A stretch of 30,676 nucleotides of DNA from a virus: positions 22,830-53,505 of the IMG/VR virus record IMGVR_UViG_3300030098_004595. One strand, written 5' to 3'. Shown piece after piece: positions 1 to 22,967 of this stretch (position 1 is the stretch's first letter; each line of letters opens with the position of its first letter). The position numbers and the translations under genes were made by a program. The notes beneath the pieces were generated by a model that saw only the letters and a list, made by a program, of their open reading frames with translations, was not told where the DNA came from and made no database searches.

Positions 1-2162
1 CTATCAACTGCATTTACAGCTTCAATTAAATTAATCTTTAATCCATTTTGTTCTAATTGCCTGTATGCATCATCAATATATTCAGTCAATACATCAAAGT
101 CCATGCGTCTGCCATGAGTATAAGGCTTATTTTTTATTTTCCTACCTTTTGCATCTACATAATGACTAGCAAATGTTATATCTCCATCCTTATTGATGTA
201 TCTAGGTAAGGCTTCCATCATTAAGCCTCTTTCCATAGTAGCTTTTAATTGAGTAGCCTGATTAATTTTAGAATGATCAATTTCTTCTTTAGATTTTAAG
301 CCTACAGTTAAATCTATTTTATCTTCAATAACTTGTAGCTGATTTATCATCTCTTCTAATTCAAGCTTTTTATCAATGACTTGCTGTCCTACCGCTGATG
401 GATTATCTTGATGTTCATCTTGAATTGCTGCAATATCTCTTTCTTTTTCACTAATACGAACCTCTAATGCATCTCTATATTCCATGCTATTAATTAATAT
501 ATCTTTTATAGGATATCTGTAGGTAATATAATCTTCTACATGGTTATAATGATGATTCATGGATATTACTTTTCCATATTTATTAACATAGAAGTTCATA
601 TTTATATTATCAAATCCTAATACATCAGCAAGTATTTTATTTAAATCGTTCTTACTTTTTCTACTAAGCTCAGATAGACTGATTCCCTTTTTCTTTGCAG
701 CCTTATTTAAAGCAGTAGTTAAAAAAGCTTCTTGCTCTATTACTGTTTTTGTAATATCCCCATATATATTCCTCATAATGCGTCTAATTTCAGCGACCAT
801 CCTCCATTCTGAATCAGAAACATCAGATTGATCTTCTTTAAACTCATAGTCTTGATAGGTTTTAATAGTAAATGATTCACCGTCTTTATCAAGCCCACTC
901 ATTGGCTTAGTAAGTGTAGAATTATAATATCCCTCACGCATCATACCAATAGTCATTGAATCTTTTTTAGGGTCTGATGCAAATTCTTTATATGTAGGGG
1001 CTAATCTTGGTATAGAAAAGAAATCAAGCCATTGTTTAGCATTATATGTCTTCATTGGGTTCATTAAGCTATCATTTTTTATCTTAACTCCCTTAACAAC
1101 TTCTCCTGCTGGGATGTAAGGCACTTCATATGCATAATATATTTCTCTTCCACCAGCCATCACTTCTTTTATTGGGATAAAATAACTATTTCTTCCATCA
1201 ATTTCTATCTTTTGTATCTGCCCTCCTGCATTCCAGTTTTGCTTTATATTTCTTTCTAGTATTTCTTCATATTTCTTTTTATGTTGCAAATTTTCAAATC
1301 TATAGCCAGGCCTTTTATTATTTTTATCAAGATCCCAACCAACAACTCTCTTAGGGATTAGATACATCTCTTGTCTATCTAATTTTTTATGTACTGATTC
1401 AATTAAATCATCTATATTTTTATTACTGTTGTTAGCAAAATGCTTTAATCTTTCTAATGCAACAGATAAAGCAAGTTTATGTGGAGCAGCTTTAGAATAC
1501 ATATTATCAGTCATTGACCTAGCTTGTTCAGTAAATTTATATCCAGCTAAACTTACATCAGTTTCAAATAATAATGATGCTGGGTCTCTTAATTCAAAGA
1601 AAGCTCCATCTTCTAACTTTCTTTTTTGTGCATTAGCTTCTGCTTTCTTAAATGATTTGTCTAAAGTATTAGCTATAGATACTAAGGTATTAACATCTAG
1701 ATCTGTCAACCTATTGAATGGTAATGTAAATTGTCTTGATATCCACTCTTTAATTGTAGGGATTTGAGTATGAGGATTGACATCATATACATTATGCTCT
1801 GCATATCTTACAAGCCTATCCATTATAATCTTATTAATTTTCTTTAAAGTTCTTTGCTTTTTTTCAAAGTTTTTATAATCTCTGTCGTACTTAGATCTTT
1901 TATTTCCAAGTTCTAATATTTGTTTATCAACATCTGCTAGCTCCTGACTAGCTCCCTGTTTCTTTAAAATCCTTTTTTGATTACTTAACTCTTTTATTTT
2001 AGCTGTCATCTTTTTAGATGCACTTTTAAATGCTTCTTTACTAAATAAAGGTACACCAAAATTTGCCTGATAAACTGTTTCAAATGTATCAAGTAAATTA
2101 TTTATCTCAGATTCAGCAGCCTCTGTATTGACTTGTTGTGGTATATCGCATATTTCTTTCAT
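1..2162 (-). CDS. Giant internal virion/ejection-block protein, 3' end beyond window
   Basis: I translated this frame by hand from the ATG at 2162: it stays open for 720 codons to the window edge, so the C-terminus is missing. The start overlaps the stop of the upstream gene as TAATG, pointing to translational coupling. Residues about 45 to 115 are very rich in Lys, Glu and Gln and look like a coiled coil; a second charged helical stretch lies near residues 570 to 640. The rest is mixed charged sequence with no motif I recognise, no signal peptide and no obvious membrane span. It is the third giant gene in a row after two other ejection-block genes, so a role as an internal virion protein injected with the DNA, or as a partner of the polymerase-like protein upstream, is an inference from position only. 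Confidence 0.8.
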   Translation of the reverse strand, partial: MKEICDIPQQVNTEAAESEINNLLDTFETVYQANFGVPLFSKEAFKSASKKMTAKIKELSNQKRILKKQGASQELADVDKQILELGNKRSKYDRDYKNFEKKQRTLKKINKIIMDRLVRYAEHNVYDVNPHTQIPTIKEWISRQFTLPFNRLTDLDVNTLVSIANTLDKSFKKAEANAQKRKLEDGAFFELRDPASLLFETDVSLAGYKFTEQARSMTDNMYSKAAPHKLALSVALERLKHFANNSNKNIDDLIESVHKKLDRQEMYLIPKRVVGWDLDKNNKRPGYRFENLQHKKKYEEILERNIKQNWNAGGQIQKIEIDGRNSYFIPIKEVMAGGREIYYAYEVPYIPAGEVVKGVKIKNDSLMNPMKTYNAKQWLDFFSIPRLAPTYKEFASDPKKDSMTIGMMREGYYNSTLTKPMSGLDKDGESFTIKTYQDYEFKEDQSDVSDSEWRMVAEIRRIMRNIYGDITKTVIEQEAFLTTALNKAAKKKGISLSELSRKSKNDLNKILADVLGFDNINMNFYVNKYGKVISMNHHYNHVEDYITYRYPIKDILINSMEYRDALEVRISEKERDIAAIQDEHQDNPSAVGQQVIDKKLELEEMINQLQVIEDKIDLTVGLKSKEEIDHSKINQATQLKATMERGLMMEALPRYINKDGDITFASHYVDAKGRKIKNKPYTHGRRMDFDVLTEYIDDAYRQLEQNGLKINLIEAVNAVD

Positions 2163-5100
2163 TATTTACAAGCCTTTCTTGCTTCCTGTATTAATGCTGT
2201 AGTAGGATTCTTCTTCTTTCTTAAATCAGCCATAGATTTATAATCAACAGTTGTATCTTGGTGATATTTTCCTGCTTGATCTGCATAATATATTAAATAT
2301 TCATTATCAAATACAATAGGATCAGGTAGATATTTAATATTTGCCCTGCCTTTAAACCCATAGAGCATATTAAATGTAAATACTTTACGAACCTGTTCAC
2401 CAGCATCATTAAGCTCGTTGTTATACTTATCTAACAGTTCATAAAGATCTTCATCAAACCTTGCTTGCTTATTAATAATATGTTTTTCTTTTACTTCTTC
2501 ATTTGTTGTTTCTTCTACGTTTTGCCCTTCATGCTCTTCATTTTTAGGATAAAATTCGTCAGCAAATCTATCAGCAATATCTTGACCTATCTCTAAATCA
2601 TCTGCATCTATTTTTCCATCTTTAATGTCTTGTGCTATATATCTAGCTAAATCTCTTCTTGCAAGAAAATGAGACATATCTTCTCTTTTTTCGTTATATA
2701 CTAATGGAGCTTCTACTTTATCTTGAGGAGTAAATGAATCTTTAAATTTATCTGCCATTCTTAATAAAAATTCTTCAGTAGGAGTACTTTCATTTATTAC
2801 TTCAATATCTTTAATGCTTAATGCAGATTGCTTATATGAACCATCAGTTTGTTTTAACTGTATAGCATTAGTTATTCTTACACCTTCTTGAATTACTTTC
2901 TTTAAAGCTTCAGGAGATGCATCTTTTCTAGATCTTACCCCATCTAATGCATGCATAAATAATTTAAAACTCATTCTATCTCTTGAATTTGGAGTTTGAG
3001 CTTTCTTTAATGCAGAGAATTTATAATTTTTAATTAGACCAGGGCTATTTTTAGTACCAGTTATCATTTTATAATGATGCTTAGTTAGTTTTCCTTCAAC
3101 ATGGAACATTCTATCTAAGTACCATTCATACTTAACAGCTCCCCATTTAGCAGTAAGCATCCCAGACTTGGTTATATCTACTGCTGCATTTGCAATCAAT
3201 AAAAACTCATGCTCTGCAGTAGTCTCTAAATATTTATCTCCTAAGCCAGCATTCCAATCTACCCACTTTCTAGTTTCACTATCATAACCAACCAATCTTG
3301 CATTGTCTGGAATATCATATTTAGTTATATCATCATTCAATGGAGCATAATTCATAATAACTTTATCAGTCATTTTCTTTGGAGTAATTGTTACTCCATC
3401 ATTAAATTCAATCTTTCCAAACTTTTTAGATATGATTGAAGCCATATTTTTTAGGTTTGTTGCAAGGCCTTGACTGTTGCTGCCATACATCAATGTCATA
3501 ATAGATCTACGTAATTCTATGGGGTTTGCAAAGCTAAATGTATCGGGCTTTTTAAATATACCAATATCTGCATTTACTGATTTACGCTCTTTATACCAAT
3601 TAGTTTGCTGGAATGATTGTATAATTTTTAAATCTTCATTTTTTATAACAATAACAGATGCTTTATCATAATCGTTATCTCCAACCAATCTAATTGCTGT
3701 ATCATTAATATGGTGATATATTGCATTACCTTCATTTTTTGTAAATTCCTGTATCATTCTTGGTTCTAAGCCAACAATCTGCAATAATGGAAATCTATAA
3801 GTTAGTACAGCTACATTATTTTCTTCGAGCCAGTAATTTACAGCATCAACCTTATCTTCATAAGGCAACTCATTAAAATCTTTTTTACCTTGATCATCAA
3901 ATGTTTCAAGCATTTTATCTACAGTATCATTAAAGATAGTTGCATTGTCAGCAGACAGTATTACCTTACCTTCTTCTACTTTTCTACCGGGCTTCATTAC
4001 ATATGTTGAACCTTTATAGCCACCATCCATTAAACTATTTAGTTTAGCTGGTGTAGTACGCCCCTGCAGGACACCTTTTACAACTAGCATATTCATAATC
4101 ATTGGTCTTAACATAGTTAAATTATTAGCAAGATGAATACCTTTACCTTTAGTAATACCTAAGAATGTACGTAATGCTAATTTAGCTTCGGCTCTATCGC
4201 TAAAGTTATATTTAACTATTTCCCATAATACTTTAGGATCTTTAGTTGCATTCATCAAAAGATTACTATACCTATCTGCTTGCTCAAATAGTATATTAGA
4301 TAAAGTTTCTTGATACTTTTTAAAGTCAGCTGCAACAGTTTTGTCTTTAATGTCAAAGTTTAAGTTTTCTAGTATTTGACCGAAGCCAGATGTACTATCA
4401 GATGATTTAGGCCTTGGAGTAATTATAACCTGCCTTGAAGACTCTTGTAATCTAAACTTGCCAAACACTCTATTCTTTTTACGTATATCATATACTCCAG
4501 TAGTAGTTTTAACTGCATCTAGGTCAGAAATTTGATGTATGTAATTTCCATCACCATCTTTAATACGAAGTTTCCCCATCTCTTTTATCATCTTAACTAT
4601 AACAGTTCCATCTTTTTTTCTTATTTCTAGTCCGGGAATACCTACAAACTCAGCATGCTTCTTCTCAATTGTACCCGCAAATGTGCCATCGTCATTTCTG
4701 GTATGCTCATGCCAAACAGTTTTTATTTCTTTAATATTCCCCTCATCATCATAAATTTTATAGACTCCAATTCTCTGACCAGTTTCGTCTAAATATTCTT
4801 CACTAACAAATGATGCTCCATCAAATATATTAACTTTTCCCTTAATACCAGGGACATCTGCTAAGTGTTCATATCTCTCACCATCTAAATAATATTCTAC
4901 TCTATCTTGGTCATAAATAATATGCTCTGATGGACCCATACCAGTAGTAACAATGCCATCACTTAAAGGAATTTTAATCCTATCCATAATTTCTAATGCA
5001 CTGCCATCCTTTATTGTCATAAAGTTATCACCTCTGACTGCTTGCATCCATTCATATGCAGCAATTCTTCCAGCAAAATGTATATAATCTGGAACTTTTA

Positions 5101-6577
5101 TATTGCCTACCTGATTTGTTGCAGCATTGTCAGCATTTTCTATATAAATTTTTTCTTGCCCTGGATTTAAATTGCCTTTTTTTAATTCTTCTTTAAAATA
5201 TAATTCTAACCGTGAAATCATAAATGGCTTTAAAGCTTTTTGTAAATCTTCAAATTGTGCTTCTTTCCCAGCTAACTCTAATTGCTCCTCTTTTTTAATT
5301 TCTCTTGAGACTCTTTTCCTTTTAATATTATCAGTCTTTTTTTCTAATTGCTTTAAAAGAGATGCCATTGTCCTAGGATATGATTCTACATATTCAATCA
5401 ATTCAGCAGAAAAGTTTAAAGCTTTCATATACTTAATAACTGCATCTTTAGGGAGTATAAAGTTAAAGATTTGAGGATTAATAAATGTGCTTATTAATCT
5501 ACCATTGTCCCCAGGTCTCATGCCAACAAGCACAGCAGGTGCATCTTTTTTGTTGAACTTTAAATTAGCTAGTTTATATTCTAATAGCTCTAAATCTTTT
5601 TGCTTAAACTCAGAAGTATCTTCAAACATTGACCAGCTATCATCTTTTTTATGTGCTACTAATTTCCCAGAGTTTTTTAAATTAATAAATAGAGTGTAGG
5701 ACTCGACAGACTTCCCTCTAATTTTATTTTTTAAACTATCAATGAAACTTTTCCCAACAGTAGACGGTTGTTCTTTTTTATCTTTTAGGCTAATTTGAGG
5801 GTTAAGAACTAACCTTTTATCATTAGCAGGAAGTATAGCATCTCTAACACTTTCAACAGAATCAATAACAGCACTTCCATCTAAGTTGGTATAAATTAAT
5901 TCTTTTACAGCTGTAAATTTTTGACTATTTAATTCATTGTGAGTATTATAAAAAACAGTTATTAGTCTTTTACGTGCTTCTAAATTTTTATTATAATTTG
6001 GACTTCTTGTATCTAAGCCACTATCATGAATTAATGGGTCTAAAAATTGATCATATACCCAATCATAAAAATCATTTGAGTCATTAAATATACTAGCTGC
6101 ATCAAATAATTTAGCTCTTTCTTCTGGCTTTAATTTTCTTCCAATAGCAGTATTGAATGCTACTTCAAATGGGTCCATCCCAGACTCGGTTACATTATAA
6201 CCGCCCGGTCTTAATACTTGATCATCACTATCAAAATCTGTATCTTCATCTCTTCCAGATTCATTAAGGGATTCACTTTTAGATCCACCGTCAGATACAA
6301 TAGAATTTTTTAATGGAGAAGATGCATATGCTAAATCAACTACTTCACCAGAATCAAACAATAAACCTAAGTCAATACCTTTTATCTCAAGAATTGCTTC
6401 AGTAAATATATCAATCATATCAGGACGCTCTTGAGCAATTGTATTATATAATATCTTTGCTACTTTACTCTTGTCATCATTTGGGAATTTATCTATGTAT
6501 TCTCTTATAATAGCTTCCATTCGTGAAGCAACTGATCCAATATTATTTAAATTTGGGCATGTAGAAAATCTAGCCAT
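2162..6577 (-). CDS. Candidate virion-packaged RNA polymerase (multi-subunit-type, single chain)
   Basis: 1471 residues, starting with ATG after an AGGAGA site that overlaps the preceding TAG. Residues 921-971 resemble the catalytic double-psi barrel of RNA polymerase beta-prime: NVAVLTYRFP (R928, P930), G936, then G-D967-N-D969-Y-D971, giving the Asp-x-Asp-x-Asp metal triad 39 residues after the Arg (35 in E. coli, R425 to D460). Residues 1027-1045 resemble the F-loop (M..MYGS, then N1041, M1045), and 1131-1144 the bridge helix (AAVDITKSGMLTAK, compare SGYLTRR). A possible beta-like barrel lies at 833-862 with K845 and K855-G. No trigger loop was recognised. The N-terminal 450 residues are helical and charged, with a basic cluster KRKR near 419. 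The usual Gly of DFDGD is Tyr here. Expected role: early transcription after ejection into the host, as in phages that package their polymerase. Alternative: a structural ejection protein with chance motifs. Confidence 0.65.
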   Translation of the reverse strand: MARFSTCPNLNNIGSVASRMEAIIREYIDKFPNDDKSKVAKILYNTIAQERPDMIDIFTEAILEIKGIDLGLLFDSGEVVDLAYASSPLKNSIVSDGGSKSESLNESGRDEDTDFDSDDQVLRPGGYNVTESGMDPFEVAFNTAIGRKLKPEERAKLFDAASIFNDSNDFYDWVYDQFLDPLIHDSGLDTRSPNYNKNLEARKRLITVFYNTHNELNSQKFTAVKELIYTNLDGSAVIDSVESVRDAILPANDKRLVLNPQISLKDKKEQPSTVGKSFIDSLKNKIRGKSVESYTLFINLKNSGKLVAHKKDDSWSMFEDTSEFKQKDLELLEYKLANLKFNKKDAPAVLVGMRPGDNGRLISTFINPQIFNFILPKDAVIKYMKALNFSAELIEYVESYPRTMASLLKQLEKKTDNIKRKRVSREIKKEEQLELAGKEAQFEDLQKALKPFMISRLELYFKEELKKGNLNPGQEKIYIENADNAATNQVGNIKVPDYIHFAGRIAAYEWMQAVRGDNFMTIKDGSALEIMDRIKIPLSDGIVTTGMGPSEHIIYDQDRVEYYLDGERYEHLADVPGIKGKVNIFDGASFVSEEYLDETGQRIGVYKIYDDEGNIKEIKTVWHEHTRNDDGTFAGTIEKKHAEFVGIPGLEIRKKDGTVIVKMIKEMGKLRIKDGDGNYIHQISDLDAVKTTTGVYDIRKKNRVFGKFRLQESSRQVIITPRPKSSDSTSGFGQILENLNFDIKDKTVAADFKKYQETLSNILFEQADRYSNLLMNATKDPKVLWEIVKYNFSDRAEAKLALRTFLGITKGKGIHLANNLTMLRPMIMNMLVVKGVLQGRTTPAKLNSLMDGGYKGSTYVMKPGRKVEEGKVILSADNATIFNDTVDKMLETFDDQGKKDFNELPYEDKVDAVNYWLEENNVAVLTYRFPLLQIVGLEPRMIQEFTKNEGNAIYHHINDTAIRLVGDNDYDKASVIVIKNEDLKIIQSFQQTNWYKERKSVNADIGIFKKPDTFSFANPIELRRSIMTLMYGSNSQGLATNLKNMASIISKKFGKIEFNDGVTITPKKMTDKVIMNYAPLNDDITKYDIPDNARLVGYDSETRKWVDWNAGLGDKYLETTAEHEFLLIANAAVDITKSGMLTAKWGAVKYEWYLDRMFHVEGKLTKHHYKMITGTKNSPGLIKNYKFSALKKAQTPNSRDRMSFKLFMHALDGVRSRKDASPEALKKVIQEGVRITNAIQLKQTDGSYKQSALSIKDIEVINESTPTEEFLLRMADKFKDSFTPQDKVEAPLVYNEKREDMSHFLARRDLARYIAQDIKDGKIDADDLEIGQDIADRFADEFYPKNEEHEGQNVEETTNEEVKEKHIINKQARFDEDLYELLDKYNNELNDAGEQVRKVFTFNMLYGFKGRANIKYLPDPIVFDNEYLIYYADQAGKYHQDTTVDYKSMADLRKKKNPTTALIQEARKACK

Positions 6578-6585
6578 TTACTCTC

Positions 6586-9500
6586 CTATAGACAAAAGTC
6601 TTCATCAATTTCTTTATTAATATTATCAGCTTCATTTTTAATATCTTGGGCTTGAGTTTCTTCAGATTTAATAATCTTAGATACAATACCTGATATTTCC
6701 TGAGTTTCTTCATTAACCTCTTTTATTGCTTGTACAATAGCATCAGTAGATATAGTAGGTGCTTTTCTTTGTTCTATTAATTCTCCCCCTAGTTGATATA
6801 ACTCTGCTTCTGCTTGACCTTGCAATGCAAGTACTGGAGAATTTTTCTTTTCATTTATTGCTAGCAATCTATCTTTTTGCTCTTCAGTTAATAAAACTTT
6901 CTCTCCATCTACTATAGCATGGGCTTCTTTCCTAGATTTAGCAGGAGGGAATTGAACCCTATTAGGTATATCTAAATATGCTTCCCCTTTAAGATCTTCT
7001 TGCTTATCAAAAATCAAATCAAATCCAGCTTTTTTTAATTTTGGATTAAATGTTTCTTTAAGTGCATTAACACCTTGAGTTAATAATTCTATATATTCAT
7101 CAAGTAATTTTTGATCTTTCTTTGATAAATTAGCCTTCCATTTATCTGTATTATTATCCCAAAAATTAGATACAACTTTCATTAATTCTTCAAATCTAGC
7201 CTGAGAAGCTAGTAAAGGCTTTAAGCCAGGCAATCCCTTGATAGTCTCAGTGTTTATTTTTTGAAGTACTGAACCAATCCCGCCAAGTGAGTATTCTCCA
7301 GCTAAACTATTATAAGTATTTTTCCATTTAGCCAGCTTTAAATTATCTCCAGGAAAATCTATCCATTGAAAAGTCTTCCCTAATTTATCTACAGCATCAT
7401 ATTTCGCTTGAGAAGGATTATCTTTACTAACTGGAGTATCTAGTTGTACTTGTTCTTCAAGCTTTTGTCTTTCAACTTTAGCGGCACTTAATTCTCTTTC
7501 AGCAAGTTCTACTTTCTTAATTGTTTCCTTTTGAAAAGGTTCTGGCATAAAGCCTTCTGTTGAAGTTTGTGTAGCAAGCTCTTTCTTAGCCTTTGCAACT
7601 TTTTCTTTTGCCTTTTTTTCTTTAGCAATAACCTTTTTATACTTAGGGTTCTTATCAAGCTTATCTTGCATGATTTCAAGTCTTGTTTTTTGAACTGGAT
7701 CTTTTTGTTTAGATAGCCATTCTTCAGTTGATTTAATCTGAGCATCAATAGCTTCTATTTCTTTACCTTTTGTTATAGCTTCTTTAATTATAATATTTCC
7801 ATCTAAAGTTTTAGCTTCACGTTTTCCATATTTCTTTTTTTGTAGCTTTAATACTTTTAAATCTGCTTCTTCATTTGCTATTTTTGTAATATCTACATAA
7901 TCTTGTGTTGCAGTTCCATCTTCAAGCCCATCAAGAGCATCAAGATAAATCTTACGAGCAGCACTTGCTTCTTTTTTAGCTTTCTTAATATCTTTATTAA
8001 GCTGTCTATTTTGGTCTACAGTTAGTACGCCTTCTGCAGCAGTTTCTTTTTTAGTTGGAGCTTTTGTAGGCTTTGCTGTCTCTTTTTCTTTTCTACCTAG
8101 TTTTAATGCAGCTATTCTAGCTTTAACATCTGGTATTTCATCTTTAGTAATTTCATCTGACTCTAAATACTTTTCACTTCTTGCTATAGCTTTATCTATT
8201 GCTTCTATAGTCTTTGGTATTCTAAATTTTTTAGGGCCTACTTCTTCAAATACTCCAGGTGCAACCTCTTTATACTCTGGTTTCTTTTCTTCTACTACAG
8301 GAGGAGCTTCTTTAACCTCACGCTTAGGCTTATCTTTCTTTGATTGCTCTTTCTTTAAGGTAGAAATTGTTTGACCTTTAAATTCCTGTGAAAATTGATC
8401 AGCAAATAACATTAATGTACCAGATACATGTTCTATAACAGCCTCTCTTTTAGAGCGTATCTCATCCGGTTTAAATTCTAGACCTAATGTTTTAGATAGT
8501 TTGTTAAGGGTAGTATTATTTGCTTTGCCTTTACCGCTCCTAAGCCTATCATACAACCATTGCTCTCCATTCTTTAAATACCCAAGCATTAATGCCGCTT
8601 GTAGTTGAGCAGGTTGAAGATTCTTTTTATTTATATTACCTAAATCTACACCTTTAGCAAGAGTTTGCAGTTGACCAAGACCATTATCTTCATCTACTTT
8701 ACTGTCTATTTTGCTTTGGAATTTATCATCAAGCTTTTTCTCAAGCTGTATATCAAGCTTTTCTGATAGCATTTCTTCATATCTATTTTCTGCTACTGCA
8801 TCTAATACATCATCAGTGCTAAATTCACCAATAGTACGCTTAATATCTTCAAGCTTTTTAGCATTCTTTGTGCCTTTAACTTTTTCATGTGCTTCTATAG
8901 ATTTAGATTTAGTAAGATAGTTTGCAACTTCTCTTTCAAGTGCTTTTACAGTATTGTCCTCTAGCCCCAACTGTTTAAATATATTTGCATTACCTGATTG
9001 ACTGACTATATCATATGCTTTTCTTCCTATATCACTATCATACTTAGCACCTTTGATAATTAGTTTCTGAACATTATTTGGATTCTTACCAAATGCTTTT
9101 TCATATTCAGTATTCGCTTTTATTTCACTAAGTTCTAATTGGCCTGCTAATAAATTAGCATAATCTTCTATAGTATTAAATTCTCTATTAATTGCTATGT
9201 TAGCATTTGAATCGCCTTCATCATTAATATCTTCATAGTCATATACTTCTCTATTAGACAAATCAGATCTAAACTGTTCAGCCATTTTAACGGCTTCAGC
9301 TTCAGTACCAGCATTATAAACATAATAAGGAAGGTCATCTTTTATTAATGTAATTACAGAGCCATCTTGGTCAATGCTAAAGCCCGCTCTAGTTCCATCT
9401 TTTCTTTTTTCTGCATGAAATGCAGCTTTATATTGCTTCCATGCTCTAGCAGGCCTTCTGCCAATTGCAGGCACACCAGGTATAATACTTCCTGACATTC

Positions 9501-10956
9501 CAGAAAATGCAGACTGATTAATTTCTTTAATATCAGAAGCAAATGGATTTAATAATGAGAACCTTTCTTCACCAATAGTAGCCCCAACTTCTTTAAGTAA
9601 ATTCGTTAATGCTGTTTCTTTAGTAGGTCCATAACCTTGACGCATTGCTTCTGATATAATGTAATTCCAAGTCTGTTGATACCCTTCTACACCTCCTTGT
9701 TCAAGTGCTCCTGCAGTCCAATCTATACCTCCCCACAAAAGTTCCCATCCTACACCACGTTTTGCCTGTGCACCTAATTCTTCAAGGGAAACCTTACCTG
9801 CAAGTCTATTCATCAAGGTAGACATAAATATTCTATCAGCTTGTTTGTTTACCCCAAGGGCTTTAGTAAGTTTATTGAATTGAAATTTTTCTAATAAAAG
9901 ACTAACTGGAACATATCCAATAGTACCTAAACCAGCAATAGGAGCTGCATCTTTAGGTTCAAACCCATATTCGTCTACTAATATATCAAGCCCAGTACTA
10001 TATATATCTCCACCCTCTAATGCAGCCATTGTACCTAACCCTAATGCTTGTGAACCTTTTACTAAACCTGTGCCAGCTGACTTAAGAGCTTTAAGCTTAG
10101 TAAATGCCCCTATTCCCTTTGACACTGTACCTACAGTACCCCAAGCACCCATAGCAATAATTGATGGAGCTAGATCAGCAAAACCACGTTTTATCATTTT
10201 AGGAGTATAAAAGTTTTTCCAATTCATAGGGTCTGAGTCAACATCAAGCATGTATGCTTGTATTGCTGGGTCATTTTTAATTGTCTCGTTAATAGACTCA
10301 TCTGCCCATTTCTTTAAATCATATGAAAAATTAGCCAATGATGTAGCTATATCCCTAAGATCTCTAGTCCTTTCTAGATTGTCAGCACCAGCTCGTCTAG
10401 CTGTATCTCTTTCAACAGCTGAAAATTTATAGTCTGGTCGTTTACTTACTTCTCTTTGTGCTAACTCTCTAGCATATTGATCTTTTGTTTTTCCTTCTGG
10501 AATTTTTACATTATAATTATTTATTGAATCTAATGCTAACCCATACCATACAGCCTCATTTTCGTTAAAATACTGATTGACTCTACGTCTTGGATCATCT
10601 TCTTCTAATGTAATATAGTCTAATAAAGCTGCAGCGGTACCTACTGCTCCTGCAGGGATTTGTTTGATCATAGATTTTAAATTATGATAGATCATTTTAC
10701 CCGTACTTGCACGATTAGGGTCTGACCAATTTTTAATTTGTCTTTCTTGCCCTATATTTTTAAACTGAATGGTATTGCTTTCTGGATTAAATGTAGCGAA
10801 TTTATCTCTATCTTTAATATGAGCAATATGTTCTGGGTGTTTTAAAAACCATTGGTTTAGCAAGTCTTCATCTTCAAGTCTTGCATATCTTGTAGTAGGA
10901 TAAGCCGCTCTAATTCGATTGGCAAATTCACTGGATGTAAATTCTCTTAAAGACAT
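6586..10956 (-). CDS. Giant internal virion (ejection) protein with membrane-active N-terminal region
   Basis: 1456 residues. The start follows TAAGG with a 7-base spacing and lies 4 bases after the upstream stop. Residues about 255-350 are Gly/Ala-rich and hydrophobic, followed by amphipathic sequence to about 500 that ends in a Gly/Pro/Arg patch (PGVPAIGRRPARA). Such segments are typical of phage ejection proteins that enter the cell envelope. Residues 868-915 form a Pro/Lys/Glu-rich linker, and 980-1190 are strongly Lys/Glu/Ala-rich and should form long coiled coils. The C-terminus is again acidic and helical. I see no lysozyme, transglycosylase or protease motif. It sits between smaller internal proteins and the polymerase-like gene, which fits a channel or core protein that carries DNA and the other giant proteins into the host. 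Function is inferred from composition and position. Confidence 0.8.
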   Translation of the reverse strand: MSLREFTSSEFANRIRAAYPTTRYARLEDEDLLNQWFLKHPEHIAHIKDRDKFATFNPESNTIQFKNIGQERQIKNWSDPNRASTGKMIYHNLKSMIKQIPAGAVGTAAALLDYITLEEDDPRRRVNQYFNENEAVWYGLALDSINNYNVKIPEGKTKDQYARELAQREVSKRPDYKFSAVERDTARRAGADNLERTRDLRDIATSLANFSYDLKKWADESINETIKNDPAIQAYMLDVDSDPMNWKNFYTPKMIKRGFADLAPSIIAMGAWGTVGTVSKGIGAFTKLKALKSAGTGLVKGSQALGLGTMAALEGGDIYSTGLDILVDEYGFEPKDAAPIAGLGTIGYVPVSLLLEKFQFNKLTKALGVNKQADRIFMSTLMNRLAGKVSLEELGAQAKRGVGWELLWGGIDWTAGALEQGGVEGYQQTWNYIISEAMRQGYGPTKETALTNLLKEVGATIGEERFSLLNPFASDIKEINQSAFSGMSGSIIPGVPAIGRRPARAWKQYKAAFHAEKRKDGTRAGFSIDQDGSVITLIKDDLPYYVYNAGTEAEAVKMAEQFRSDLSNREVYDYEDINDEGDSNANIAINREFNTIEDYANLLAGQLELSEIKANTEYEKAFGKNPNNVQKLIIKGAKYDSDIGRKAYDIVSQSGNANIFKQLGLEDNTVKALEREVANYLTKSKSIEAHEKVKGTKNAKKLEDIKRTIGEFSTDDVLDAVAENRYEEMLSEKLDIQLEKKLDDKFQSKIDSKVDEDNGLGQLQTLAKGVDLGNINKKNLQPAQLQAALMLGYLKNGEQWLYDRLRSGKGKANNTTLNKLSKTLGLEFKPDEIRSKREAVIEHVSGTLMLFADQFSQEFKGQTISTLKKEQSKKDKPKREVKEAPPVVEEKKPEYKEVAPGVFEEVGPKKFRIPKTIEAIDKAIARSEKYLESDEITKDEIPDVKARIAALKLGRKEKETAKPTKAPTKKETAAEGVLTVDQNRQLNKDIKKAKKEASAARKIYLDALDGLEDGTATQDYVDITKIANEEADLKVLKLQKKKYGKREAKTLDGNIIIKEAITKGKEIEAIDAQIKSTEEWLSKQKDPVQKTRLEIMQDKLDKNPKYKKVIAKEKKAKEKVAKAKKELATQTSTEGFMPEPFQKETIKKVELAERELSAAKVERQKLEEQVQLDTPVSKDNPSQAKYDAVDKLGKTFQWIDFPGDNLKLAKWKNTYNSLAGEYSLGGIGSVLQKINTETIKGLPGLKPLLASQARFEELMKVVSNFWDNNTDKWKANLSKKDQKLLDEYIELLTQGVNALKETFNPKLKKAGFDLIFDKQEDLKGEAYLDIPNRVQFPPAKSRKEAHAIVDGEKVLLTEEQKDRLLAINEKKNSPVLALQGQAEAELYQLGGELIEQRKAPTISTDAIVQAIKEVNEETQEISGIVSKIIKSEETQAQDIKNEADNINKEIDEDFCL

Positions 10957-13569: not shown

Positions 13570-15105
13570 TTAAACTGCTATTACTGGATCGCAACCACCA
13601 TAACTGTTTGGCTGTTTCCCTTCAGGGCACCAATGCATACCTACTTCAAATGCTGTTCCATAATTAGCACCAGGTCCAGTACCCCATCCTGGAGGAAAGA
13701 CAATGTTGCCTCCTGTGCCACCTGTACTGCCTTGGCCTAATTCATCTGCCTCTACGCATCCTCCACCAGTCCATACTCCTCCACCAGCAAGGCAAGTTCC
13801 TTCTGGATCAGGATCAGTCCATACACCTCCTTCATCAGTTCCACCAAGACCAAGGTCTCCATCTCCACCTTCTTCTATACACTGACATAAAGTATCTGAC
13901 CAAGACCAACCAATTCCACAATAAGATTCTCCACCAGGACAATTACCACTATATGCTGGGTCTGTATCTGTTGGGCCAACTACTTCATCTCCAGCGCCTA
14001 AGTCATGTGACCCTGGCTCTGTTCCATATTCACAGGAGCCATCGTCAATAGTTGCTTGAGGATCATAATTATTCGCATCTGGATAAGTACAGCCAGTAGT
14101 TTCTCCAACTGTAGCCAATTCTTCAGTATATGCTTCAGAGCTAAATGGATTAAATTCAAAGTGCTCAAAACCTGCTGGTGCAGTATAGCCTGAAAGTTGA
14201 GTAGTCATATCTTGAATAAGACCTGCATACCAATCTTCATATATATCTAATGCTTCTAGTTCAAATTCGCCACCAACAGTTTCAAGATATTGAGATAATC
14301 CTAAGTTCTGCAATTCTAGTTGATCAGAAAACCCAGTTTGTATGCCACTTACATCAAAATCATATCCAGCAAGATCTTCTGCTATTGCTGCTTGTGCAGA
14401 ATCACGTATGCCTCTTTGGCTTATTATATTTTGTCTAATCTCTTTCCCTAATTTTTCTTGTAAATTTTTAAAAGCTAAAGATCCACCTCCTCCAATGCCT
14501 CTACCAGCTTGTAATCTTTTAGATTTTAATTCTTGCATACCAGCTTGCAATGCTTGGTTTCTAGACATTCTCGCTTCTCTTAATTGAGATTGTTTATCTA
14601 TCTCTATATCTTCTAATCCACTTAAATAATTTGATTCCAAGTTAGACAATTGAGTTTCTAATACTCCACCTTCTCCAGCTTGTGCTTGTGTCCACGTATC
14701 ATAAGTCTCCCATGCATGCTCCATATCTGTTGCATATCTACTCTCTAGATCAGCTATTTCTGCTGCATCAAAAGCCCATTGTCCAATCTGTTCGCTATAC
14801 ATATTTGTAAAATCTGCTAGAACTTGATCGTAGCCTTCTAAGCCTTCATATTGGTTAAATCCTAACGTTGCAATAGCATCTACTAAGTCACTTGATCCTA
14901 ATGAAAATAATGGATTATAGCCTTCAGGAAGTCCAGTAGAAACATTGAATTGAAAATCTGGAGTTCCACCCCATTCATAAATATCTCTTCCAAATTGATA
15001 ATCAGAACCAACTCCAATATTAATTCTATCATCAAAAGATAACCCTCCAGTATATCCTTCATATGATATCCCCTCTATTTCAAATGGATTGTATTGCTCA
15101 GGCAC
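13570..15105 (-). CDS. Virion protein with cysteine-rich C-terminal region
   Basis: 511 residues starting with GTG that overlaps the upstream TAG (TAGTG), with AGGT and AGGAG just upstream. The N-terminal part (1-330) has no cysteine and is acidic and helical, with a likely coiled coil at about 110-245 interrupted by a Gly run (GRGIGGGG, 201-208). The last third holds ten cysteines (339, 358, 389, 396, 407, 409, 438, 450, 493, 505). Residues 338-360 match a short repeat well known from secreted proteins of aquatic bacteria and some phages, of the form GCxxPxAxNYxPxAxxDDGSCxY. The remaining Cys pairs lie in Gly-rich loops (CLAGGGVWTGGGC). The pattern suggests disulfide-stabilised modules that work outside the cytoplasm, so the protein may be exposed on the particle or delivered to the periplasm. 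It belongs to the ejection block by position. Confidence 0.72.
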   Translation of the reverse strand: MPEQYNPFEIEGISYEGYTGGLSFDDRINIGVGSDYQFGRDIYEWGGTPDFQFNVSTGLPEGYNPLFSLGSSDLVDAIATLGFNQYEGLEGYDQVLADFTNMYSEQIGQWAFDAAEIADLESRYATDMEHAWETYDTWTQAQAGEGGVLETQLSNLESNYLSGLEDIEIDKQSQLREARMSRNQALQAGMQELKSKRLQAGRGIGGGGSLAFKNLQEKLGKEIRQNIISQRGIRDSAQAAIAEDLAGYDFDVSGIQTGFSDQLELQNLGLSQYLETVGGEFELEALDIYEDWYAGLIQDMTTQLSGYTAPAGFEHFEFNPFSSEAYTEELATVGETTGCTYPDANNYDPQATIDDGSCEYGTEPGSHDLGAGDEVVGPTDTDPAYSGNCPGGESYCGIGWSWSDTLCQCIEEGGDGDLGLGGTDEGGVWTDPDPEGTCLAGGGVWTGGGCVEADELGQGSTGGTGGNIVFPPGWGTGPGANYGTAFEVGMHWCPEGKQPNSYGGCDPVIAV

Positions 15106-21876: not shown

Positions 21877-22182
21877 TTACTCCTTTTCGTTAGTTTTTCT
21901 TTTCTTCAAGCCATTGCCAGACAACGCTTGTACTATTTCTACTAATGACTCATAAGAAGATCTCATATCTGCAAGACTTTCCTTTATGTCAATCTGTAAT
22001 TCTTTTTGCTGGGATATTAATGTCACAATAATCTTCTCAAGTCTATTTTGAGATTCTTGCAAATCATCCATAAAAAACTTTTGTATAAATTGAGTTTGCT
22101 TCCAAATAAACCACATAGATGCACCAGCAACAGATACTGGCACTCCTAACTTCTCTATTATATCAATAAATCCCATTTCCAT
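21877..22182 (-). CDS. Holin-like membrane protein with coiled coil
   Basis: 101 residues. A single hydrophobic segment (about 12-28, LGVPVSVAGASMWFIW) is followed by a long charged coiled-coil-like helix (30-88) and a basic tail (KKRKTNEK). One membrane segment plus an amphipathic coil and basic tail is the layout of small phage holins of the BhlA/UviB type, which open the inner membrane at the end of infection. The ATG at 22182 overlaps the upstream stop (TAATG) and has little Shine-Dalgarno sequence, so translation is probably coupled; a second ATG at 22176 is possible. No endolysin gene is visible in the window, so a lysis role is inferred. It could instead be a membrane-anchored virion factor. 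Confidence 0.6.
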   Translation of the reverse strand: MEMGFIDIIEKLGVPVSVAGASMWFIWKQTQFIQKFFMDDLQESQNRLEKIIVTLISQQKELQIDIKESLADMRSSYESLVEIVQALSGNGLKKRKTNEKE

Positions 22183-22967
22183 TAATTACCGTCCAATACT
22201 TCTCCCCATAAAGAGGTTTTACCTTCTATGATTGATACTATATGCACAGTAAAGTGACCTTTATCATAAAAGTCAACTACAGCAAAAGCATGAGACCAGT
22301 TATGCGGCCTACCATTTAACCATGCATTTTGCTCTTTACTCATATCTTTTAAACATCCTATACTCCATGCACTAATAGGACCTGATAAATGAGTAATACT
22401 GCTTTGTTGTATATCATGGTGATGACCATACATAATACTTTCTCCTAATCTTTGTAAATGATTACGAGTATGCTGTATGCCTGCAAACTGATTCCCATGA
22501 TAAAAGTTTAAATTACCTATCTTAAGAAATTCACTATTAGGATGGTATATCCATCCCCGCTCTTCAAGCCGAATAGAGTTCTTAAATAAATAAGTATCAG
22601 CTAAATATGGATGTTCATCTACAAAACGATTCATCCAGTCATCATGATTGCCTTCGATCATATGCCTTTCATCACACCCAGCTTTATCTAAAGCATCATC
22701 AATAAAATCCATACCAACGTTGACATCTTCAATATCTTTATCTATAAAAGGCATTTGATATTCAAGTGGAGGTCTTTTCTTTTTCTTCCACTGCCAATGA
22801 GAACAGCCATGCCATTCTCCTACATCTCCCAGATCAATATAAATATCTGGCTTTACTATATCGATAGCCTGAGCTAAAACATTCATAGCCGGACCATCTG
22901 CCAAAGGATAGTGCTTATCTGGGGTTACAATTGCCCTCTTAACCGCACTTTTTTTCTTTCTAGGCAT
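22182..22967 (-). CDS. Calcineurin-type metallophosphoesterase
   Basis: 261 residues with ATG after AGGAGA. The metal-binding motifs of the calcineurin-like phosphoesterase superfamily are visible in order: D17-x-H19, G47-D48, G106-N-H108-D109, H157 (NFYHGNQ) and G181-H-H-H184. These ligands hold two metal ions and cleave phosphomono- or diesters. No signal peptide or membrane segment is present, and the N-terminus is very basic (MPRKKKSAVKR), so it may be cytoplasmic and bind nucleic acid or phospholipid. The motif set does not reveal the substrate; protein phosphatase, nuclease and nucleotide phosphodiesterase activities occur in this fold. It is sandwiched between two membrane-protein genes and overlaps the downstream one by a single base, which is an unusual setting for this enzyme. 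Confidence 0.88.
   Translation of the reverse strand: MPRKKKSAVKRAIVTPDKHYPLADGPAMNVLAQAIDIVKPDIYIDLGDVGEWHGCSHWQWKKKKRPPLEYQMPFIDKDIEDVNVGMDFIDDALDKAGCDERHMIEGNHDDWMNRFVDEHPYLADTYLFKNSIRLEERGWIYHPNSEFLKIGNLNFYHGNQFAGIQHTRNHLQRLGESIMYGHHHDIQQSSITHLSGPISAWSIGCLKDMSKEQNAWLNGRPHNWSHAFAVVDFYDKGHFTVHIVSIIEGKTSLWGEVLDGN

Follow-up and report, generated by a model that had tools for sequence, protein, structure and literature searches.

We investigated whether a giant protein encoded in the ejection block of a phage genome is a divergent RNA polymerase (RNAP). The window, that is, the whole stretch of 30,676 nucleotides analyzed here, covers positions 22830–53505 of a 53,505-base IMG/VR virus record (G000:C1). 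The protein, P0001 (1471 aa; window 2162..6577, minus strand), is described below as a single-chain two-barrel RNAP and a candidate virion RNAP on the basis of its ORF, homologs, and predicted structure. The original prediction had pointed to three blocks in and around residues 928–1150 (window 3128–3796) that follow the order seen in multi-subunit RNAPs, and the quoted residues are indeed present in P0001: R928, P930, G936, and D967/D969/D971, with an Arg-to-first-Asp distance of 39; GSNSQG...N-L-x-x-M at residues 1032–1045; and AAVDITKSGMLTAK at residues 1131–1144. The accompanying argument that motif order and spacing alone are hard to dismiss was overstated for one sequence: the pattern R-x-P-x(30-50)-DxDxD occurred in 459 of 20,000 shuffles of P0001 (2.3%); among 245 ORFs from five reference phages, one contained it. 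Because the bare motif is this common in shuffles, the RNAP claim had to be tested by homologs and structure.

Searches of PHROGs, Pfam, NCBIfam, and the PDB (by sequence) with full-length P0001 returned no match, and tblastn of the full protein in 50,697 phage records found no relative (the sole match had E = 2). Two further core sequences also had no match among the phage records, and pattern scans of viral contigs with P0001 alone yielded no relatives. Relatives were reached via the major capsid protein and terminase, then by tblastn and profiles in the records so obtained, and then by alignment-based scans. The family alignment comprised 21 sequences including P0001, the other 20 of which share 16–41% identity with its core. 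Fourteen columns were invariant (D586, G587, K619, K640, K690, G694, R928, P930, D967, D969, D971, G1037, A1131, and D1134). The three Asp, whose loss in homologs would have spoken against the prediction, were kept in 21 of 21 sequences, and several relatives, among them G014 and G018, carry the canonical DFDGD, while K1137 was changed to S or E in 3 of the 21. The motif therefore exceeds chance, since R, P, and the three Asp are invariant throughout the alignment, down to 16% identity.

The conserved polymerase core (residues 431–1400; window 2378..5287, minus strand) was modeled by AlphaFold2 with the 21 sequences (mean pLDDT 84.6, pTM 0.81). The top Foldseek match in the PDB was 6vr4, the crAss-like virion RNAP of phage phi14:2 (E = 1.2e-8), followed by cellular RNA-interference enzymes including QDE-1 (2j7n, 7y7t; E about 2e-5) and by bacterial beta-prime. 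Among predicted viral proteins, the closest match was an identical 1471-aa protein, A0A516M7V2, deposited unnamed; further unnamed relatives and crAss-like proteins, including crAss-like RNAPs, came next. Structure prediction, which had been suggested as a check, thus gave a confident model that matches two-barrel RNAPs, with the best match being phi14:2 gp66, named in advance as a comparison. These matches indicate that P0001 has the two-double-psi-barrel fold, and its invariant triad is the predicted counterpart of the Mg2+-binding DxDxD motif of the two-barrel RNAP superfamily. The TM-score to 6vr4 was 0.38 by query length, which means that large parts of the two proteins differ or are differently placed. 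A model of a second subfamily from the same phage clade, based on a 6-row alignment, was poor (pLDDT 44) and was set aside.

We then compared the family profile with a crAss-like profile, composed of phi14:2 gp66 and seven other Crassvirales RNAPs. Their alignment scored 38.7, whereas 40 column shuffles reached no more than 23.5 and the reversed alignment 19.9; 40 shuffles of 30-column blocks, which retain most of the DxDxD block, scored up to 37.6. Twelve of 16 family-invariant residues were identical invariants on both sides, compared with no more than one in 60 column shuffles and no more than seven in 60 shuffles of 60-column blocks. Direct hhalign between the P0001 family and the crAss-like RNAPs was weak alone (P = 0.006, probability 6%), and the second subfamily forms a bridge (family–subfamily, 95.8%, E = 7e-9; subfamily–crAss, P = 9e-5). 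Given the low direct probability, residue agreement and fold jointly carry the argument for kinship with crAss-like RNAPs.

Domain limits in P0001 were taken from AlphaFold2 secondary structure and conservation. The beta-like barrel region (DPBB-B) probably spans about residues 550–725 (window 4403..4930, minus strand), as judged from invariant columns, predicted strands, of which it mostly consists, and the gp66 pairing. It contains the invariant D586-G587, K619, K640, and K690, with D586, K619, K640, and K690 paired with gp66 D962, K1012, K1027, and K1065. K619 (4721..4723, minus strand) and K640 (4658..4660, minus strand), both aligned with crAss-invariant lysines, are the predicted catalytic lysines of this barrel. 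The beta-prime-like barrel region (DPBB-A) probably spans about residues 856–977 (3647..4012, minus strand), judging from secondary structure, R-x-P, and DxDxD. The R-x-P motif, R928-F929-P930 (3788..3796, minus strand), has R1322 and P1324 as partners in gp66 for its invariant R and P, and the catalytic-type D967-N-D969-Y-D971 (3665..3679, minus strand) has D1361/D1363/D1365. As the lysine block (619–690) lies upstream of R-x-P and DxDxD (928–971), both halves are in one chain, with the beta-like half first. Downstream, G1037, A1131, D1134, and K1137 are paired with gp66 G1548, A1609, D1612, and K1615.

Two of the original assignments were revised. The third block had been taken for the bridge helix; it aligns with gp66 AFVDNAK, whose last residue, K1615, is the trigger-loop counterpart of Rpb1 His1085 (PMC8713982). 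As K1137 pairs with this trigger-loop lysine, AAVDITKSGMLTAK is assigned to the end of the first, N-terminal helix of the trigger loop, in a segment at residues 1121–1144 (3146..3217, minus strand). Likewise, the second block had been likened to the F-loop, but G1037...N1041 falls midway along a predicted helix of 34 residues (residues 1019–1052; 3422..3523, minus strand) between DPBB-A and the trigger loop. Given this position and its length, the helix is probably the bridge helix, and the invariant G1037 within it is reminiscent of a glycine conserved in the bridge helix of RDR2 (PMC8713982). Both earlier assignments are therefore rejected.

P0001 is closer kin to the crAss-like/QDE-1 clade than to bacterial beta-prime. 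Like phi14:2 gp66, its best fold match in the PDB, P0001 is a single chain with a beta-like half followed by a beta-prime-like half, and all of gp66 D962, K1012, K1027, K1065, R1322, P1324, D1361/1363/1365, A1609, D1612, and K1615 are matched. Conversely, P0001 is shorter (1471 aa versus 2180), reads D-N-D-Y-D where gp66 reads D-F-D-I-D, has a K619–K640 spacing of 21 compared with 15 for K1012–K1027, and shows no pairwise tblastn similarity to crAss-like RNAPs and a weak profile-to-sequence match. The phages also differ: terminase, portal, and capsid belong to other families. QDE-1-type enzymes share with P0001 a trigger-loop Lys instead of His (PMC8713982), whereas they serve cellular RNA interference and have no PDB sequence match to P0001. 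Thermus phage P23-45 gp96 is likewise a two-barrel RNAP with DxDxD, and it is linked to a giant virion protein that is injected (PMC10770324), but it belongs to a long-tailed phage, is fused to the tape measure, and is clampless and flat, whereas P0001 is free-standing and has helical elements after the catalytic region in the AlphaFold2 model. Bacterial beta/beta-prime shares the order of R-x-P and DxDxD and the beta-prime fold match, but bacterial RNAP consists of separate subunits plus alpha and omega, whereas P0001 is one chain and no other subunit was seen. A Caudovirales lineage also encodes separate beta and beta-prime subunits (PMC7481178), unlike the single-chain P0001. P0001 does not resemble single-subunit virion RNAPs of the N4/T7 type, with no RNAP match in Pfam, PHROGs, or NCBIfam and with two-barrel enzymes as the fold matches listed.

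Upstream of P0001 lies P0002, a 1456-aa ejection-type protein (6586..10956, minus strand), and on the other side P0003, which is the initial portion of a third giant protein of about 1240 aa (3..2162, minus strand; the rest is at L004:1195-2694), cut by a scaffold gap of 10 Ns (L004:2820-2829) at the left edge of the window. P0003 is one gene broken by assembly, because a single 1244-aa ORF of the related record G017 matches the two halves; G017 shows the same three neighbors (ORFs of 1090, 1683, and 1244 aa). In another relative, G014, one 3229-aa ORF matches P0002 at its residues 105–329 (E = 2.7e-17) and P0001 at its residues 2184–2886, near the C-terminus (E = 2.6e-12); the homologous part of P0002 is residues 213–455 (9592-10320, minus strand), corresponding to the N-terminal part of the fusion protein. 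By these matches, two proteins of the present phage are one chain in G014. Separately, in the related record G001 the RNAP is divided between neighboring ORFs of 1027 and 814 aa (G001:C1:47531-50468), with the break directly after the DxDxD region; ambiguous bases there probably mark an assembly gap. The late block of phi14:2 is also co-directed and has its RNAP as the middle one of three consecutive giants (gp67-gp66-gp65), annotated from virion MS/MS. Fusion of virion RNAPs to giant virion proteins is established in P23-45 and has been noted for crAss-like phages (PMC10770324). Because of this precedent, the late-block position beside P0002 and P0003, and the G014 fusion, we infer with fair confidence that P0001 is packaged in the virion and acts in early transcription.

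Taken as a whole, the original prediction of a single-chain, divergent RNAP is supported by a homologous family that keeps its catalytic-type residues, including the Asp in all homologs, invariant, and by a confident, RNAP-like predicted structure. P0001 is thus very probably a single-polypeptide two-barrel RNAP of the crAss-like/QDE-1 clade, which probably works like phi14:2 gp66; we infer its activity, DNA template, packaging, injection, and role in early-gene expression. In such a scheme, P0001 would be expressed late along with the structural genes, packaged beside the neighboring giant ejection proteins, and injected ahead of the DNA or with it, after which it would transcribe early genes before host RNA polymerase does so, or without its help. 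The Asp triad of the beta-prime-like barrel (D967/D969/D971) would bind Mg2+ opposite K619/K640 in the beta-like barrel, and the putative bridge helix (about residues 1019–1052) and the trigger loop with K1137 would assist catalysis. No repeated promoter-like motif was found, nor was there any excess of sigma-70 sites or terminators.

Alternatively, an active two-barrel RNAP could be made during infection for middle or late genes and never be packaged, as is the case for the non-virion enzyme gp64 of P23-45 (PMC10770324); nevertheless, the gene sits in a late co-directed structural and ejection block between two other giant proteins, one relative has the RNAP and an ejection-type protein as one chain, and the packaged gp96 of P23-45 is likewise fused to a virion protein (PMC10770324), which makes this reading improbable. 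We regard it as more doubtful still that P0001 is a virion protein of RNAP descent, no longer catalytic, whose sole function is in ejection or DNA translocation. The strong divergence and the lack of universality of K1137 would suit such a protein, but three Asp, R-x-P, and three Lys that are invariant in 21 sequences to 16% identity are unexpected in a dead enzyme. Finally, the frequency of the bare motif in shuffles would allow an ordinary ejection protein with beta-prime-like motifs by chance, but family invariance, the AlphaFold2 model with its Foldseek matches to RNAPs, and the pairing with crAss RNAP invariants leave this with hardly any probability, provided that the model is right.

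The phage that encodes P0001 has an SU10-type capsid and a P22-like portal. Its terminase, portal, and capsid fall in phrog_38, phrog_156, and phrog_1328, versus phrog_6681, phrog_6547, and phrog_11589 in phi14:2, and by these three structural-gene families it is not a member of Crassvirales. Twenty-nine records (G001–G029) were selected through capsid or terminase, independently of RNAP, and 25 of them contain a match to the RNAP of either subfamily; the weakest matches are confined to a short stretch (E about 1e-5). No RNAP match was found in G009, G023, G026, and G027, which may be fragments, and the RNAP was absent from the cultured phages whose capsid or terminase is distantly similar (ICP2, PaP2, Tiera, Mel-JY34, and ICBM2). 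It appears somewhat probable, on this evidence, that nearly all members of a large uncultured clade outside Crassvirales depend on an injected RNAP of the single-chain two-barrel kind, either free (about 1.4–1.7 thousand residues) or fused to an ejection protein (about 2.7–3.4 thousand).

The fold and chemistry of P0001 are of a known kind. What is new is a family beyond the reach of any library used, its wide presence outside Crassvirales, the compact free form, and the variation between split and fused forms; no description of an RNAP of this clade was found in the literature searched, mostly without subscription papers. Virion relatives of cellular RNAP, known mainly from crAss-like phages of the gut, are also described in Thermus phage P23-45, and their presence in 25 of 29 records of a separate clade, in free and fused forms, widens the known range of the enzyme. 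If the clade does rely on it, virion two-barrel RNAPs would be a general strategy shared or exchanged among distant phage lineages and not a crAss speciality. In addition, the P0001 family supplies biochemistry with compact natural forms of the enzyme and makes it testable whether such phages begin transcription with an injected one. Giant "hypothetical" ejection proteins unseen by family libraries can thus conceal polymerases.

Several other genes of this phage were also observed. A late-region protein (window 13570-15105, minus strand) carries a GCTYPDANNYDPQATIDDGSCEYG segment, which we take to be of a kind found in secreted Bacteroidota proteins and a possible hint at the host. The structural block includes a metallophosphoesterase of PHROG 221 (window 22182-22967, minus strand), and the structural block of phi14:2 has one of the same PHROG. 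A 274-aa class II aminoacyl-tRNA-synthetase-like protein (L003:6462-7286, minus strand; Pfam tRNA-synt_2, E = 1.5e-15) has weak NCBIfam matches, far below cut-off, to Lys, Asp, and Asn ligases and EpmA, and is too short for a full synthetase. No DNA polymerase was recognized among the proteins scanned. A 601-aa protein (L003:17279-19084, plus strand) with a primase-polymerase-like N-terminus and a DnaB-like C-terminus is probably the replicative primase-helicase.
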